Assembly: GCF_900129135.1 (NCBI RefSeq)
Contig: NZ_FQVI01000011.1
Location: 62,001 to 126,000 of the forward strand
Length of the DNA: 64,000 nucleotides
From: Lactonifactor longoviformis DSM 17459
GTDB taxonomy: Bacteria; Bacillota; Clostridia; Lachnospirales; Lachnospiraceae
Direction of reading: 5' to 3'
Part shown: one piece after another, positions 38,754 to 64,000 of the stretch
Layout of the letters: each line of letters opens with the position of its first letter
Numbering within the stretch: the first letter of the stretch is position 1
Notes under the pieces: model-generated
Told to the model about the DNA's origin: nothing
The model's database searches: none
What the model saw: the letters and a program-made list of their open reading frames with translations, nothing else
Made by a program: the position numbers and the translations under genes

Positions 38754-39098
38754 TCACAGTATCTTCTCCGACTCCCCTGAACTCTCGGTAATATCATACA
38801 AATCATCAAAGGAAATCTTAGTATTTACAATTTTTAGAACTCTTGCCGTCTCATCAATTCTGGATACCATCCCTGTCAGTTTGATATATTCATTTTTACA
38901 GAAATATACAACTGTTATAATGTCATTTTTATGCACCTGCCTCAGTTTTCGATCCAGTTCTTCCTGATAGTCTTCCGACAGCGTTCCCTTTGGCAGCACT
39001 ACCTTTTCTTTCCTGCGCAGGGCATCCGGATAGCCTTTCAGGGCAGCAAACGGCATAAACTGCTTTGCCCTTTCCTCTCTGCTCATTTTAGATACCAC
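38754..39098 (-). CDS. YolD-like protein
   Basis: 114 residues. The N-terminus (SREERAKQFMPFAALKGYPDAL) and the central VYFCKNEYIKLTGMVSRID are typical of the YolD-like family, which is usually encoded next to Y-family polymerases in Firmicutes. It overlaps the end of the polymerase gene by 11 nt. A role as UmuD-like partner or regulator of the polymerase is inferred from that constant association. Confidence 0.88.
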   Translation of the reverse strand: MVSKMSREERAKQFMPFAALKGYPDALRRKEKVVLPKGTLSEDYQEELDRKLRQVHKNDIITVVYFCKNEYIKLTGMVSRIDETARVLKIVNTKISFDDLYDITESSGESEKIL

Positions 39099-40356
39099 TT
39101 TTATGCCCTCCTATCTGCCGGTTACGCTCCATAGCGGTCGCTCCCTCCTGAAGGTTCATGCCTTTTAGAATCGCATTCTTTCCATATTTTTCTTTAATGT
39201 TAAGCATAGCTTCCTGCATTTTATGTTCCCGCTCCAGCTCTGCCGGATCTGTAAACAGGTCATACTGCTGATACCTCTCGTCCACCACATGATTAAAGGT
39301 AAGGTTTATCCTGTGAATAGGTACAGACTGATCCACAATCCGTTCATACAGCTTCATTGCAGATGCGATTATCTGCTTTGCGGAACTGGTGGTAACTGTC
39401 ATAGAAGCTGTCCCATGTGCGGATTTCTTCTGTAACCGGCTGCTGTATCCCACATGCAGGGTAATGGAATCCGTCACTAGCCCTTTATCCACAAGCTCCA
39501 GAGAGAGCATATCAGCCATTTCCTTCACAACCAGTATGGCATCCTGATAGGAATAGTCGCAGGGAAGTACCTGTCCGCTTGATATACAATTTTCTTTGGT
39601 CCGATACGCTTTGATGTCAGCCATGGTAACGGGTTCCCTTCCCCATGCATGGTCAATGAGAAGCTCCGCGTCAACCCCGAACATCTTGTACAGCATCACC
39701 TCATCGGCCTTTGCCGCCTGCTCCATGGTAAAGATACCAGCCCGCTCCAGCCGGTTTGCTGTCCCTGTCCCGATTCTCCAAAAGTCTGTAAGAGGCCTGT
39801 GGCTCCACAAAGTCTCCCGGTAGATCATCTCATCTAAAACGCCGATGTGATCCTCCGCATGCTTTGCCGTGATATCCAGAGCAATCTTAGCCAGATAAAG
39901 GTTGCTGCCGATTCCCGCAGTTGCAGTAATCCCTGTGGTGTCCAATATATCCTGCATAATCTTAATGCTCAGTTCCTTTGCCGTCATCTGGTACATAGAC
40001 AAATAGTCCGTAACATCCATAAAAACCTCATCAATAGAGTAAATATGAATATCTTCTTTTGCGATGTATTTCAGATAAATACCGTAGATCTCGGCAGAAT
40101 AATCAATATAGAGCTGCATTCTGGGAGGTGCCATAATATATTCTATTCCTGCCGGAATCTGAAATACTCTGCATCTGCCCGGTACTCCCAGCGCTTTCAT
40201 AGCTGGTGAGACTGCCAGGCAGATTGTCTTTTCCGTACGCTCCGGATCCGCCACCACTAGTTGGGCCTTCATCGGATCCAACCCTCTCTCCACACATTCT
40301 ACCGAGGCATAAAAGGATTTCAAATCAATACACACGTAGATTCTGTTCTCTGTCAC
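39088..40356 (-). CDS. Y-family DNA polymerase (UmuC/DinB type)
   Basis: 422 residues from the GTG at 40356. This start is chosen because a promoter at 40400-40428 places the transcript start at about 40393, which rules out ATGs at 40401 and 40428. The catalytic core is present: YVCIDLKSFYASVE (first Asp), and YSIDEVFMDVTDYL (Asp-Glu pair). The thumb has TAGIGSNLYLAKIALDI, then a little-finger domain (LHVGYSSRLQKKSAHGT). It performs error-prone bypass of DNA lesions. It is followed by yolD in an operon. Confidence 0.9.
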   Translation of the reverse strand: MTENRIYVCIDLKSFYASVECVERGLDPMKAQLVVADPERTEKTICLAVSPAMKALGVPGRCRVFQIPAGIEYIMAPPRMQLYIDYSAEIYGIYLKYIAKEDIHIYSIDEVFMDVTDYLSMYQMTAKELSIKIMQDILDTTGITATAGIGSNLYLAKIALDITAKHAEDHIGVLDEMIYRETLWSHRPLTDFWRIGTGTANRLERAGIFTMEQAAKADEVMLYKMFGVDAELLIDHAWGREPVTMADIKAYRTKENCISSGQVLPCDYSYQDAILVVKEMADMLSLELVDKGLVTDSITLHVGYSSRLQKKSAHGTASMTVTTSSAKQIIASAMKLYERIVDQSVPIHRINLTFNHVVDERYQQYDLFTDPAELEREHKMQEAMLNIKEKYGKNAILKGMNLQEGATAMERNRQIGGHKSGI

Positions 40357-40399
40357 TTCCGGCCGCCTGCTTTCCTTCTTAATTATCTTCACTGCTATC

Positions 40400-40428
40400 A
40401 TTTTACCAGAACAGGAGTTTGTTTTCAA
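40400..40428 (-). promoter_or_regulatory. dinB promoter with LexA-like box
   Basis: Minus strand TTGAAA (40428-40423), 17-bp spacer, TAAAAT (40405-40400). The spacer contains AAAC-TCCT-GTTC (40420-40409), which fits the Gram-positive LexA consensus GAAC-N4-GTTY. SOS control is therefore likely. Confidence 0.65.
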
Positions 40429-40536: not shown

Positions 40537-40583
40537 TTTTATATATATAAAATTTCCTGCGATTGTTTTTTATATATATAAAA
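40537..40583. promoter_or_regulatory. Twin AT palindromes
   Basis: Two identical 16-bp palindromes TTTTATATATATAAAA at 40537-40552 and 40568-40583, exactly 31 bp apart (three helical turns). They lie in the 342-bp gap before dinB and resemble the palindrome TTTTATAATTATAAAA at 41396, beside the XRE-cupin regulator. The regulator that binds them is not known. Confidence 0.5.
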
Positions 40584-40652
40584 CCAAAAGTAAGGCATGG
40601 AGTATCCAAAATTCCTCTTACCAGCCGCTTGCCCCCCGCCCATTGCGGAAAT

Positions 40653-40692
40653 AAAAAAGGTACAAAGGCATCTACATCCGCCTTTGCACCTT
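40653..40692 (-). terminator. Terminator after the XRE-cupin gene
   Basis: On the minus strand AGGTGCAAAGGC / GCCTTTGTACCT with one mismatch, then TTTTTT. It starts 7 nt after the stop at 40699. Confidence 0.8.
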
Positions 40693-40698
40693 CTAATT

Positions 40699-41241
40699 CT
40701 AATGACAATTATTAATCTGCTTAATCCACAGACTTGAACAGGGTACTTCCGAAAGATTACTGAGGCTGTGCTTCTTCTTGGAATCCACATAAAAAGCATC
40801 GCCCTCATGAAGCACAAACTGCTGTTCGTCCAGCGATATCGTCAATTCTCCTTCTAACACGAATCCTATCTCATCGTAGGCATGGGTCCATTCCTTCTTA
40901 TATTCGCAGTGGGGCTCCACAACAATCAGAAGCCCGTCCAGTCTCTCCGGGCCAAAATTGATTGATTCATAGCGAATCTGGCCCTTCTGCTCAAAAACGA
41001 TTTTTCTGTCCTTCGCACGGATTATATTCTGTCCCCAATTCTTATCATCCAGCAGTTTCACAAGTTCTATATCTAAGGCCGCACAGATACGCTGTATATT
41101 ATCAAGCGTGGGACTGCAGAGGTTCCTTTCCAGATTACTGATAAAAGCAGGGGAAAGCCCAGTCTCATGTCCCAGCTGTGTGAGTGTCACTCCCCGCCTT
41201 TTGCGCAGATTCCGCACCCTTGTTCCTATCCCTTCTCCCAT
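40699..41241 (-). CDS. XRE-cupin transcriptional regulator
   Basis: 180 residues from the ATG at 41241, where AGGAGATAAGG is the ribosome site. Residues 1-65 are an XRE helix-turn-helix (TRVRNLRKRRGVTLTQLGHETGLSPAFISNLER); residues 105-178 are a cupin (WTHAYDEIGFVLEGELTI; GDAFYVDSKKKHSL). It is divergent from serine dehydratase, with palindromes on both sides of that promoter. It probably controls serine breakdown in response to an amino acid or related ligand; the ligand is inference. Confidence 0.9.
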   Translation of the reverse strand: MGEGIGTRVRNLRKRRGVTLTQLGHETGLSPAFISNLERNLCSPTLDNIQRICAALDIELVKLLDDKNWGQNIIRAKDRKIVFEQKGQIRYESINFGPERLDGLLIVVEPHCEYKKEWTHAYDEIGFVLEGELTISLDEQQFVLHEGDAFYVDSKKKHSLSNLSEVPCSSLWIKQINNCH

Positions 41242-41320
41242 TAACCTTATCTCCTTTTGCCTCTGTGTTTTTACCAACGACAAAATCATATCATTTTTTA
41301 GGAATAAATTACAAGTAAAA

Positions 41321-41411
41321 TTTTTTACGATTGTAAAAAAATCTGTTGACTTTATTTGAAGCTGCATTTTATAATACACATAATCATAAAATATTTTTTA
41401 TAATTATAAAA
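41321..41411 (+). promoter_or_regulatory. Serine dehydratase promoter flanked by palindromes
   Basis: TTGACT (41346-41351), 18-bp spacer, TATAAT (41370-41375). Palindrome A, TTTTTTAC-GATT-GTAAAAAA (41321-41340), ends 5 bp before the -35. Palindrome B, TTTTATAATTATAAAA (41396-41411), lies in the early leader. On the other strand TATGAT (41289-41284) is a plausible -10 for the regulator gene, so site A could serve both. Confidence 0.65.
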
Positions 41412-41428: not shown

Positions 41429-43024
41429 ATGCAGCGCCAAAGTCCAAGTATTTTTAATGATATTGTCGGTCCCACTATGATTGGACCTTCCAGCTCGCAC
41501 ACATGCGGGCCCTCACGCATCGGTTTTCTGGCACAGCAGCTTCTTCCGGGAACTTTGAAAAAAGCTTCTGTGGCTTTCGCGCGGGAGGGAGCCTACACAA
41601 TGATGTATAAGGGGCAGCGCTCTGATATGGGGTATGTGAATGGTCTCCTGGGCCGGCGTCCTGAGGATCCCAGGCTTCGCAATGCCTTTGGGGAAGCCGA
41701 AAAAGCCGGTGTGGAAGTCAGCTTTGAAATACAGGATTTTCCTGCTATTGTACCTAATATCTCACATATCACTTTAGAGAATACAGAAGGAAGACAGGTT
41801 ACTGTGCATTCCGATTCCACCGGGGGAGGCACCGTAAAGTTATTAAAAATTGATGACTTCGACGTGTCCATCGTAGGAGACTGCTACGAACTCATCGTGA
41901 GAGCAGACTGCGATACAGCTGAGCTTGGGCACATCTGCACCTACATACAGGCATTGAATGGCAGAGATGAAGGAAGCAGCGTATCCGCCCTCGAAGGACG
42001 CGGACTGATTAATCTAAAATACCGGACTCCTTTACAGGAACAGGTTCTTGAGCAAATAAAAAAAATACCATCTGTCTCTGAAGTCATTATGATGGAGCCC
42101 GTCCTCGCAGTTCCCTCTAACCGGCACTGCAGACTCCCATTTGCCAGTGCAGAGGAAATGTTAGCAATGTCACACTCCGAGAGCAAGGAGCTGTGGGAAC
42201 TGGCCGTGGAGTACGAGATGGCCCGCAGCGGCTGGAGCAAGCAGCAGGTTTGGGATTATATGAAATACGTTGTGGATACCATGGAGCACAGTGCAAAAGA
42301 GGGCCTGAAAGGCGGGATCGATATGCGCGGCATCATCTCCCCCACTGCAGGCAAAGTTGAGAACTATATAAAAAAGGATTCAAAAGCGCTGGATATGGGA
42401 GTATTAAATACAGCCGTTCCCTGGGCCATGGCTACTATGGAATACAGCAGCGCCATGGGAGTTGTTCTCTGTGCCCCCACCGGCGGTTCAGCCGGGGTCT
42501 TCCCCGGAGCTGTGCTGGGCGTTGCCAATCATCTGGAACTCTCCACAGAAGAAAAAATTCGTGCTATGTTTGTTACATCCATCATAGGTATTGTCATGAG
42601 CAAAGATTGCAATTACTCTGCGGAATTATACGGGTGCCAGGTTGAACCAGGAGCAGCTTCCGGTATGGCAGCAGCCGGACTGGTATACATAATGGGCGGT
42701 ACCTCCGAACAGATGTGTCAGGCCGCATCCTGTGCCGTACAAAATATTCTTGGTACCATATGCGACCCGGTGGCGGGATTAGTGCAGATCCCATGCATTA
42801 ACCGGAATGCCATGTCCGCGGCAAACGCTGTGGTATCCGCTAATATGATTCTGGGCGGTTTTGATCCCCTCATTCCTCTGGATCAGACTGCAGAGACGCT
42901 TTTTCGCGTAGGACGGCAATTGCCTTCCGAATTGCGGTGTACCTGCCATGGCGGATTATGCACTACTCCCTGCGGTCAGCAATTAGCGGCAGAACAAGAA
43001 GCCCGGGATAATAACAGAGCGTAA
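41429..43024 (+). CDS. sdaA: L-serine ammonia-lyase, single-chain Fe-S type
   Basis: 531 residues. The beta domain comes first (NDIVGPTMIGPSSSHTCGPSRIG, 10-32, and an ACT-like segment about 150-220), followed by the alpha catalytic domain (APTGGSAGVFPGAVLGV; Cys residues in KDCNYSAELYGCQVEPGAA and in ICDPVAGLVQIPCINRNA for the [4Fe-4S] cluster). It deaminates L-serine to pyruvate and ammonia and is oxygen-sensitive. Many clostridia split this into SdaAA and SdaAB; here it is fused. The Cys-rich tail CTCHGGLCTTPCG is notable. AAGGAGGG precedes the ATG. Confidence 0.94.
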   Translation: MQRQSPSIFNDIVGPTMIGPSSSHTCGPSRIGFLAQQLLPGTLKKASVAFAREGAYTMMYKGQRSDMGYVNGLLGRRPEDPRLRNAFGEAEKAGVEVSFEIQDFPAIVPNISHITLENTEGRQVTVHSDSTGGGTVKLLKIDDFDVSIVGDCYELIVRADCDTAELGHICTYIQALNGRDEGSSVSALEGRGLINLKYRTPLQEQVLEQIKKIPSVSEVIMMEPVLAVPSNRHCRLPFASAEEMLAMSHSESKELWELAVEYEMARSGWSKQQVWDYMKYVVDTMEHSAKEGLKGGIDMRGIISPTAGKVENYIKKDSKALDMGVLNTAVPWAMATMEYSSAMGVVLCAPTGGSAGVFPGAVLGVANHLELSTEEKIRAMFVTSIIGIVMSKDCNYSAELYGCQVEPGAASGMAAAGLVYIMGGTSEQMCQAASCAVQNILGTICDPVAGLVQIPCINRNAMSAANAVVSANMILGGFDPLIPLDQTAETLFRVGRQLPSELRCTCHGGLCTTPCGQQLAAEQEARDNNRA

Positions 43025-61992: not shown

Positions 61993-62784
61993 TTAAATGA
62001 TCGTTTTAATATATTTATTTGTAATACTCATACACCACTCCATGTATTCTTTTGAAGGTGTTTTAACATCCGGCAGCTGATATGTAAGCCCCAGTTTGCG
62101 GTAAGTATCCGTCCCCAGCCGATGATAAGGCAGCAGCTGCAGGCAATCCACTCCAGGCAGTCCCATAAGAAATTGCCCTAGCTGCTCCAAATCTGTTTGT
62201 GAGTCATTCACTCCCGGAATCAACGGTCTGCGGATAATCAGCTTCATACCACTTTTCTCAGCCCCGGCTTTCCGTATATTATGCAAAATAATGTCATTGG
62301 GTACACCCGTGTACTTCATATGAGCCTTGGTATCCATAAGTTTCAAATCCACAAAAGCGGTGTTTGTATTTTTTAAAATCGGCTCAATCTTACTCCATTC
62401 TCCATAAAAAGAGGTTTCAATACAAGTGTCAATGCCCTCCCAGCATGCGCGGCTCACCAGATAATAAGTAAATTCCGGCTGAGCAAGGATTTCTCCGCCT
62501 GACACGGTCATCCCTCCGCCTGAATGGAAATAAAACGGAATATCTTTTCGGACCTCTGCCATAACTTCTTCAACCGTCATGACAGCCCCATAGGTTATGC
62601 TTCCATCCAGGGTAGTCTGGATTCCTTTCTGATGACTTTCCGGAGTTGAACACCACCGGCAGCGCAGCGGGCACCCTTTCAAAAACACAACTGTCCGTAA
62701 TCCATCTCCATCATAAATAGAACTTTTTTCAATCCGAAGCACAGACCCCTGAAGATCCATTTTTTCATAACTTTGATATCCCAT
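61993..62784 (-). CDS. Glycyl-radical enzyme activase
   Basis: 263 residues, radical SAM with CPLRCRWC (Cys spaced CxxxCxxC) near residue 34-41 and GGEILAQPEF for SAM binding. The extra ferredoxin domain with eight Cys found in many such activases is absent, as in PflA-type and some HypD activases. It abstracts the glycine hydrogen of the enzyme encoded 16 nt upstream. Confidence 0.92.
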   Translation of the reverse strand: MGYQSYEKMDLQGSVLRIEKSSIYDGDGLRTVVFLKGCPLRCRWCSTPESHQKGIQTTLDGSITYGAVMTVEEVMAEVRKDIPFYFHSGGGMTVSGGEILAQPEFTYYLVSRACWEGIDTCIETSFYGEWSKIEPILKNTNTAFVDLKLMDTKAHMKYTGVPNDIILHNIRKAGAEKSGMKLIIRRPLIPGVNDSQTDLEQLGQFLMGLPGVDCLQLLPYHRLGTDTYRKLGLTYQLPDVKTPSKEYMEWCMSITNKYIKTII

Positions 62785-62800
62785 TTTTCCGCCCTTTCAA

Positions 62801-64000
62801 TCAGCCCCAGTTTGCAATCTCTGTACGCTGGATTATGTCGTCCTGGATATCCTTGCCCAGTTCGACAAAGAATGCAGTATATCCCGCAACTCTCACCAGC
62901 AGATCCTTGTGGTCTTCCGGATGCTTCTGTGCATCTATGAGCACCTCAGGATCAATAATGTTGTATTGGGTATGATAGATATCCAAAGTACACTGTGTTT
63001 TAAGCAGAACCATCATGTTAGTTAACCCGCGCTCGCCTTCTAAGAGTTTTGGATCAATCTTCAAGTTCATCTGTGTCCCCTGCGTAAAACGTGCATGCGG
63101 CAAATTACTGATAGATTTCAAAAGGGCCGTAGCTCCATTTACATCCGTACCTCCCGTGGCGCCAATCCCATCTGCAAGCGGCGTCCATGCCTTCCGTCCG
63201 GACGGAAGCGCTCCTACACTCTGTCCGATCGGCACATTGCCGGATACCGGAAGCATGCCCGCAGTCAGCTTTCCAAAGGGAGAGTCATATTTCTCAATCT
63301 GATCTACCAGATAATTGTAGATTTCTCCCGCACAGAAATCTGCTTTCGGATCATCGTTGCCGTATTTTGGCGCCTCCATACACATCTTATGAATCTCCTC
63401 ATATCCATCGAAGTTGGCATCCAATGCTTTGCAAAGTTCATCCATGGACACTTTCCTTTCATCGTAGACAAGATATTTCACATCTGCTACAGAGTTTATG
63501 ATATCTGCCTGCCCGATGATATTGATTCCATTTCCCACATTAAATTCAGCTCCTCCATTGGCATAATCTTTACCCACCTCCATACAGTGCGGATAGGTAA
63601 GAGAAAGTGCCGGTACCGGCCGGTAGTTCTCACTGAGATAATCCAGATAAGAATTCATGGTTGCCATCGTATGTACAAAATAATCTATTTGCTTTTTAAC
63701 TGCTGTCATAAAATCATCAAAAGTCTTGAAATTGCGAGGATCACCTGTCTGAACGGACACCTGTTCACCTGATTTGCGGCTCTTGCCATTTGTCATAACC
63801 ATATCTAAAACTCCGCCCATGCTGATTTCCCCAATATCCGTGTAGGATTTTAAGCGGCCTTCCAGATTCGTCTCCACACAGCCGCACGGAGTCCAATCCC
63901 ATGCCTGTGACAATGGAATCCCCTTATTCAAGAGCATCTTAATCCCTGCATCATCATGATAAACTGCCGGCATAGTGCGTCCCATCCGAATACACTCTGC
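62801..64000 (-). CDS. hypD: Glycyl-radical dehydratase, probably hydroxyproline dehydratase (partial)
   Basis: The last 399 residues are inside the window. The thiyl Cys and base Glu appear as GC41-V-E43 (visible numbering), the pattern of dehydratases and of choline lyase but not of pyruvate formate-lyase. The glycyl-radical loop is RVAGYTAFF near the C-terminus (Gly about 373 of 399). PHCMEVGKDYANGGAEFNVG and LPSGRKAWTPLADG are general family landmarks. The choice of trans-4-hydroxy-L-proline dehydratase rests mainly on the adjoining activase and proC. The 5' half lies beyond position 64000. Confidence 0.85.
   Translation of the reverse strand, partial: AECIRMGRTMPAVYHDDAGIKMLLNKGIPLSQAWDWTPCGCVETNLEGRLKSYTDIGEISMGGVLDMVMTNGKSRKSGEQVSVQTGDPRNFKTFDDFMTAVKKQIDYFVHTMATMNSYLDYLSENYRPVPALSLTYPHCMEVGKDYANGGAEFNVGNGINIIGQADIINSVADVKYLVYDERKVSMDELCKALDANFDGYEEIHKMCMEAPKYGNDDPKADFCAGEIYNYLVDQIEKYDSPFGKLTAGMLPVSGNVPIGQSVGALPSGRKAWTPLADGIGATGGTDVNGATALLKSISNLPHARFTQGTQMNLKIDPKLLEGERGLTNMMVLLKTQCTLDIYHTQYNIIDPEVLIDAQKHPEDHKDLLVRVAGYTAFFVELGKDIQDDIIQRTEIANWG

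Follow-up and report, generated by a model that had tools for sequence, protein, structure and literature searches.

Gene organization and palindromic sites at the regulator locus

In the window (i.e., the whole 64-kb stretch of DNA analyzed here), a gene for an XRE-cupin regulator lies between a gene for a Y-family DNA polymerase and a divergently read gene for a fused (beta-alpha) iron-sulfur L-serine dehydratase-like protein (Table 1). The regulator combines an N-terminal XRE-type helix-turn-helix (HTH) with a C-terminal cupin domain (Pfam HTH_3, 40.6 bits, cut-off 23; Cupin_2, 59 bits, cut-off 27.2). Palindromes occur in the intergenic regions on both sides of its own gene, and its neighbors are enzymes and small-molecule transporters, namely the dehydratase here and the dehydratase with BCCT and MTTB genes in two relatives. 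Together these features place it among the XRE-cupin regulators, with the palindromes recognized at the level of sequence and the neighbors as its presumed targets. SinR was the best-scoring solved HTH domain for the regulator. The best NCBIfam model was that of PuuR (NF007408, residues 5-169), but the score of 61.5 bits is far below the cut-off of 211, and an assignment as a PuuR orthologue was rejected. Four residues of the cupin domain (H120, E124, H158, and N162) do not vary among eight aligned sequences and would suit a metal or ligand pocket. The dehydratase-like protein scored 218.8 bits with Pfam SDH_alpha (cut-off 26.4), 25.2 bits with SDH_beta (cut-off 26), and 227.8 bits with the NCBIfam model sda_alpha (cut-off 243.2). 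A terminator-like hairpin (40694-40655) parts the regulator transcript from the sites behind the gene, and an Rfam scan of the window gave nothing at gathering thresholds.

Table 1. Features of the regulator locus in the window and of two further loci in the same genome
Feature	Location	Positions	Strand	Sequence or remark
Y-family DNA polymerase gene (DNA polymerase IV-like)	window	39088..40401	-	in place of the relatives' TM-BCCT-MttB operon
Operator T1 (predicted site)	window	40537..40552		TTTTATATATATAAAA; perfect palindrome
T1-T2 spacer	window	40553..40567	-	15 bp; AATCGC where both relatives have TTGACA (0/6)
Operator T2 (predicted site)	window	40568..40583		TTTTATATATATAAAA; perfect palindrome
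Terminator-like hairpin behind the regulator gene	window	40655..40694	-	16-pair stem, then T run
XRE-cupin regulator gene	window	40699..41241	-	180 aa; HTH_3 + Cupin_2
Possible regulator promoter	window	41285..41314	-	TTGTAA-N18-TATGAT; 9/12, consensus match only
Operator A (predicted site)	window	41323..41338		TTTTACGATTGTAAAA; 7/8 pairs complementary
Dehydratase promoter	window	41346..41375	+	TTGACT-N18-TATAAT; 11/12
Operator B (predicted site)	window	41396..41411		TTTTATAATTATAAAA
Fused (beta-alpha) iron-sulfur L-serine dehydratase-like gene	window	41429..43024	+	531 aa
XRE-cupin regulator	contig C29	216566-217081
MttB	contig C29	217395-218726
XRE-cupin regulator	contig C57	13872-14411
MttB	contig C57	14689-16071

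The initial annotation had described a family of AT palindromes around the regulator gene, and all four of them were recovered, starting at 40537, 40568, 41323, and 41396. One perfect palindrome, TTTTATATATATAAAA, is indeed present twice beyond the regulator gene (T1 and T2), 31 bp start to start and separated by a gap of 15 bp. The other two sites flank the dehydratase promoter, as had been claimed: 7 bp separate site A from the -35 box that follows it, and site B is in the 5' leader, 20 bp past the -10 box and just before the ribosome-binding site, with 73 bp from center to center. Site A is also located upstream of the possible regulator promoter. The end pattern that the sites had been said to share holds for all four of them, which match TTTTAYNNNNRTAAAA. 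Between the -10 box and site B there is a half-site, ACACATAATCATAAAA (41376-41391), which is possibly a weak fifth site; Eubacterium sp. UBA5416 has ATCTATAAACATAAAA at the same place, and in both genomes the half-site is 20 bp from site B.

Conservation of the sites in related bacteria

The regulator was searched for in 299 genomes of the family, in the 1 genome of the genus (i.e., the window genome itself), and in 3 genomes of the genus of genome G280. The search also covered 392 genomes of the order and 391 of the class, with at most eight candidates scored per genome; these sets overlap. A scan of the named genome collection with the regulator alone returned nothing, and a scan with the dehydratase alignment returned 4 loci. 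In the genomes searched, close orthologues of both genes were found at just two other loci, so that the footprint is built on three species. These are Eubacterium sp. UBA5416 (locus L091), with a regulator 75% and a dehydratase 77% identical to those of the window, and an uncultured Lachnospiraceae (locus L092), with 52% and 76%, respectively. The sequence of locus L017 (genome G280) is found without any difference within the latter, so that the two were counted once. Mailhella and Desulfovibrio metagenome-assembled genomes (MAGs; loci L093 and L094) encode the dehydratase, but as no relative of the XRE-cupin was found in the stretch examined, they were left out of the footprint. The two other genomes of the genus of G280 hold only a regulator relative of 40-41% identity.

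Both relatives have a tandem pair behind the regulator gene, TTTTACATATATAAAA / TTTTATATATATAAAA at a distance of 31 bp in Eubacterium sp. UBA5416 and TTTTATAATAATAAAA / TTTTATAAACATAAAA at 32 bp in the uncultured Lachnospiraceae. In all three species, the start of site A precedes the -35 box by 23 bp; the site reads TTTTACGATTGTAAAA in the window, TTTTATGTTTATAAAA in Eubacterium sp. UBA5416, and TTACACAAATATAAAA, with two mismatches, in the uncultured Lachnospiraceae. Site B is found in Eubacterium sp. UBA5416 as TTTTACACATATAAAT, with one mismatch and at 73 bp from site A as in the window, and the uncultured Lachnospiraceae has no clear counterpart at the matching place. Measured between their centers, T2 and A are separated by 755, 757, and 818 bp in the three species, and these distances thus differ by 2 and 63 bp.

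A weight matrix was trained on the 5 strict sites of the two relatives only, excluding the window sites and keeping out the imperfect ones (site B of Eubacterium sp. UBA5416 and site A of the uncultured Lachnospiraceae). Among 63,985 positions it ranked the four window sites first to fourth, with scores of 26.2, 26.2, 25.1, and 18.1, while the best window hit that did not overlap them scored 12.6 vs 18.1 for the weakest of the four (A). Such sites at the same places in two related bacteria make it very probable that the palindromes are sites of the regulator, and the earlier suggestion that one protein may bind all four is well supported by this comparison with two other species. The strict motif was present at 2 of the 52 loci fetched with the regulator, namely the window locus and that of G280. 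At the 50 other loci, which surround more distant regulator relatives (some places fetched twice), it was absent; this lack of the strict motif around XRE-cupin paralogues of about 40% identity and less is consistent with other specificities.

Frequency of the motif in the window, the genome, and beyond

TTTTAYNNNNRTAAAA has four matches in the 64-kb window, all at the regulator locus, where 0.02 were expected, and three of the 5 perfect 16-bp palindromes in the window belong to the T1/T2/A/B set. Both intergenic regions (269 and 187 bp) were shuffled 20,000 times with dinucleotides kept and their TTTTAYNNNNRTAAAA counts summed; the count was 0 in 19,880 shuffles, 1 in 120, and never 2 or more. 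In the whole genome (4,837,805 bases, i.e., 4.84 Mb, in 75 contigs and 97.75% complete), the exact 16-mer TTTTATATATATAAAA occurs at T1 and T2 only. The degenerate pattern is found at 15 places vs 16 for the pattern read backwards, and 4 of the 15 lie within 875 bp at the regulator locus. Since the count is close to that of the reversed control, the motif is not enriched genome-wide and the oddity is its local clustering; the genome-wide count was dropped as evidence. The frequency test proposed in the initial annotation thus gave a divided outcome, with the genome-wide comparison against the motif and the local shuffles in its favor, and the case is carried by clustering and conservation. That the palindromes arose by chance in AT-rich intergenic DNA would agree with the 78% AT of the upstream intergenic region and with the genome-wide count, but the shuffles and the placement conserved in two other species leave this explanation an almost negligible probability.

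The 11 other places in the genome were considered as members of a regulon and rejected, four of them lying inside reading frames of at least 120 aa (loci L006, L007, L008, and L015). The best-scoring of them, at locus L014 before a URO-D family gene, is better explained as a LacI-family site: TATAACGTTTTA occurs twice at L014:1494-1653, between the URO-D family gene and a LacI-family regulator gene, and is possibly a LacI operator. With the weight matrix, four of these places score higher than site A (L014 20.6, L003 19.5, L013 19.1, and L006 18.9, vs 18.1 for A), so that site A would not stand out genome-wide by its score.

A strict tandem pair with a gap of 14-17 bp was detected in 4 of 397 family genomes and in none of the 397 with the reversed control. 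Two of the 4 are the window genome and G280; the tandem pairs of genomes G047 and G122 have no regulator relative within 3 kb around them. In the viral collection, the tandem pattern was present in 8 stretches, none of which encodes a regulator relative (E 1e-3). The tandem pattern therefore also arises without this regulator. On an IMG/VR contig, five TTTTAYNNNNRTAAAA matches fall within 172 bases (L121:7789-7960), with no regulator relative in the stretch examined.

The palindromes could also bind another, unlinked regulator, given that binding is deduced from the position of the sites and that AT-rich palindromes would fit many factors. This we regard as highly unlikely: the XRE-cupin gene is the only regulator gene that adjoins the sites in all three species, and the motif is found at few other places in the genome, the best-scoring of which, among the loci scanned, looks like a LacI-family site.

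Proposed regulation by the XRE-cupin protein

In both relatives, the tandem pair makes up the promoter region of an operon directed away from the regulator gene. This operon encodes a small membrane protein (TM) that matches no Pfam family, a BCCT transporter, and an MTTB-family methyltransferase. The Pfam search covered the transporter and the methyltransferase of Eubacterium sp. UBA5416, to which the counterparts in the uncultured Lachnospiraceae are 73-75% identical. The T2 counterpart stands just upstream of the -35 box TTGACA, and the T1 counterpart extends across the promoter spacer and into the -10 box TAAAAT. Palindromes over and around promoter elements are in the usual place for repression, which suggests such a role here.

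Based on the sequence, clustering, and conserved placement of the palindromes, we infer with high confidence that all four serve as operators for the XRE-cupin protein whose gene lies between them and which would act as a local repressor of a betaine-type module. The SinR-like HTH domain would allow a dimer of the protein to occupy each 16-bp site. Of the two dimers at the dehydratase promoter, one would be positioned directly before the -35 box and the other in the early leader, 73 bp or about seven helical turns apart, and behind the regulator gene two dimers would be placed 31 bp (about three turns) apart. In the relatives, this second pair brackets and overlaps the promoter of the TM-BCCT-MttB operon, so that the protein most likely represses, along with the dehydratase, the genes by which a betaine-type quaternary amine would be taken up and demethylated. 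A metabolite, i.e., a small molecule bound by the cupin domain, would release the repression. The protein would act on the dehydratase gene, probably also on its own gene, and, in the relatives, on the BCCT-MttB operon.

Several observations weigh against this scheme. The sites are predicted, and their footprint comes from three species, with two mismatches in site A and no recognizable site B in the uncultured Lachnospiraceae and one mismatch in site B of Eubacterium sp. UBA5416. Genome-wide the motif is no commoner than its reversed control, genomes G047 and G122 hold the tandem pattern without a nearby regulator relative, and the sites could belong to a different protein. Repression is also not certain, as NceR, another XRE-family cupin regulator, is reported to activate ompA (PMC10470515).

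A probable operator pair without its promoter and operon

In the window genome the operon is missing and its -35 box has been lost, but the predicted operator pair is intact. The two-sided arrangement of sites is found in all three species, and the downstream operon is absent in the window, where no remnant of it was detected at E 1e-3. In the genome, no orthologue was found of the operon's BCCT transporter (3 matches, best 32% identity) or of its MttB (14 MttB-like matches, best 34%). In a comparison with Eubacterium sp. UBA5416, 3 of 15 bases agree in the T1-T2 spacer, vs 31 of 32 in the operators (Fisher p about 1e-7). If point mutations alone acted, it follows from this difference that the operators were preserved, unlike the promoter. 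An operator pair retained without its promoter or operon is an uncommon feature, and the pair either has been retained because it does something else (looping or titration) or is a relic by an unusual route.

As a relic, the pair would have remained after the loss of the TM-BCCT-MttB operon, with operators that have not yet decayed. The presence of the operon in both relatives, the lack of an orthologue in a genome that is 97.75% complete, and the lack of a remnant in the window all agree with this. On the other hand, decay by point mutation would have struck the operators as well as the spacer, which does not fit the difference in conservation between them, unless a single event replaced the spacer or the ancestral state was a different one. 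On balance, we give the relic somewhat less than an even chance.

The orphan pair may instead consist of auxiliary operators, which would loop over about 755-860 bp to the promoters of the dehydratase and the regulator or raise the local concentration of the repressor there. Perfect retention of the pair without a recognizable -35 box between T1 and T2 points in this direction. The spacings also agree with it, as those of A and B (73 bp) and of T1 and T2 (31 bp) are near whole helical turns, and the differences in the T2-A distance between species (2 and 63 bp) correspond to about 0 and 6 turns; these three phase values carry no statistical weight. The excerpts of PMC7901475, PMC12724383, and PMC10965056 do not mention looping by XRE-cupins. 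A role as auxiliary operators is considered possible but less likely than not. Looping across the regulator gene, as suggested in the initial annotation, is no more than compatible with the retained orphan pair, which is the best argument for it; the main alternative is the loss of the operon with a replaced spacer. A reading in which the pair outlived its operon and promoter and was kept by selection as a promoter-less auxiliary operator for the divergent dehydratase and regulator promoters is possible but rather doubtful. If it were true, nature would have supplied a before-and-after comparison for a bifunctional cluster of operators that spans an XRE-cupin gene, and the pair would already have had a second role in the operon-bearing species. 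With the pair retained and the operon missing, the window genome is a clean natural setting in which to ask whether two-sided operators have a function beyond repression of the promoter that they overlap.

The downstream pair might now control the adjacent Y-family polymerase gene, which is the first minus-strand gene read away from it. This is unlikely, considering that the polymerase gene has a promoter-like site of its own (40428-40400), about 110-140 bp beyond the pair, and that the pair stands without this gene in the relatives, in which no homologue was found at L091 or L092. A box at 40409-40420 by the polymerase gene, GAACNNNNGTTY, is of the LexA type; with 2 occurrences in the window vs 3.07 expected, it was not accepted as evidence.

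Comparison with known XRE-cupin regulators

In Pseudomonas aeruginosa, XRE-cupins are described as local repressors of neighboring enzymes and transporters that act at palindromic sites (excerpts of PMC7901475). One of them, PsdR, has two sites surrounding its own gene and controls a peptide-binding transport protein and a dipeptidase, according to the same excerpts. Its palindromic motif is TTAAGNNNNNCTTAA, and it is reported to bind also a non-palindromic site at lasR (excerpts of PMC10965056). PsdR and the window regulator are alike in their HTH and cupin domains, in palindromic sites (predicted ones in the window), and in the placement of these on both sides of their own gene. They differ in the sequence of the site, the host phylum, and the substrates (peptides for PsdR), and PsdR has two sites instead of two pairs and no operon loss. 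For DbuR of Pseudomonas putida, excerpts of PMC12724383 describe a footprinted AT-rich palindrome, AATTCTCATATATTAGAATT, with a protection that includes the predicted -10 element. DbuR is likewise an XRE-cupin with an AT-rich palindrome and a gene divergent from its target, but it has a single 20-bp palindrome between regulator and target, and the target is a D-branched-chain amino acid operon. The arrangement in the window is of the kind known from these XRE-cupin systems.

Modules of MttB-family quaternary amine methyltransferases and BCCT transporters offer a further likeness, as BCCT and MTTB are encoded together behind the tandem operators in both relatives; the difference is that here they are joined with a fused serine dehydratase and an XRE-cupin regulator. 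In the titles and abstract openings of the papers surveyed, no description of this motif or of a dehydratase-BCCT-MttB-XRE-cupin module was found; a survey of XRE palindromes was published in 2025 (PMC12565409). TTTTAYNNNNRTAAAA would be a concrete, testable operator motif for a rarely found XRE-cupin regulator, and it ties this regulator to a module of a BCCT transporter, an MttB-family methyltransferase, and a fused serine dehydratase.

Related gene arrangements

In the window genome, two further XRE-cupin genes adjoin MttB-like genes, on contigs C29 and C57 (loci L103, L047, and L111; Table 1). At locus L099, a more distant regulator (40% identity) adjoins another fused serine dehydratase-like gene. 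This recurrence of XRE-cupin genes beside MttB-like or dehydratase-like genes supports the module reading of the locus.

A stretch of the Desulfovibrio MAG (L094:310-6593) holds a fused dehydratase (71% identity), an epoxide hydrolase-like gene, an MTTB-family gene, and a BCCT transporter. As no XRE-cupin relative was found in the stretch examined, the link between dehydratase, MttB, and BCCT may extend beyond this regulator. At the end of the window (61993-63985) lies the 3' part of a gene for a glycyl radical enzyme, a fragment cut by the window end, for which the best NCBIfam model is choline TMA-lyase (356 bits vs a cut-off of 1050), and a gene for a glycyl-radical enzyme activase is located behind it.
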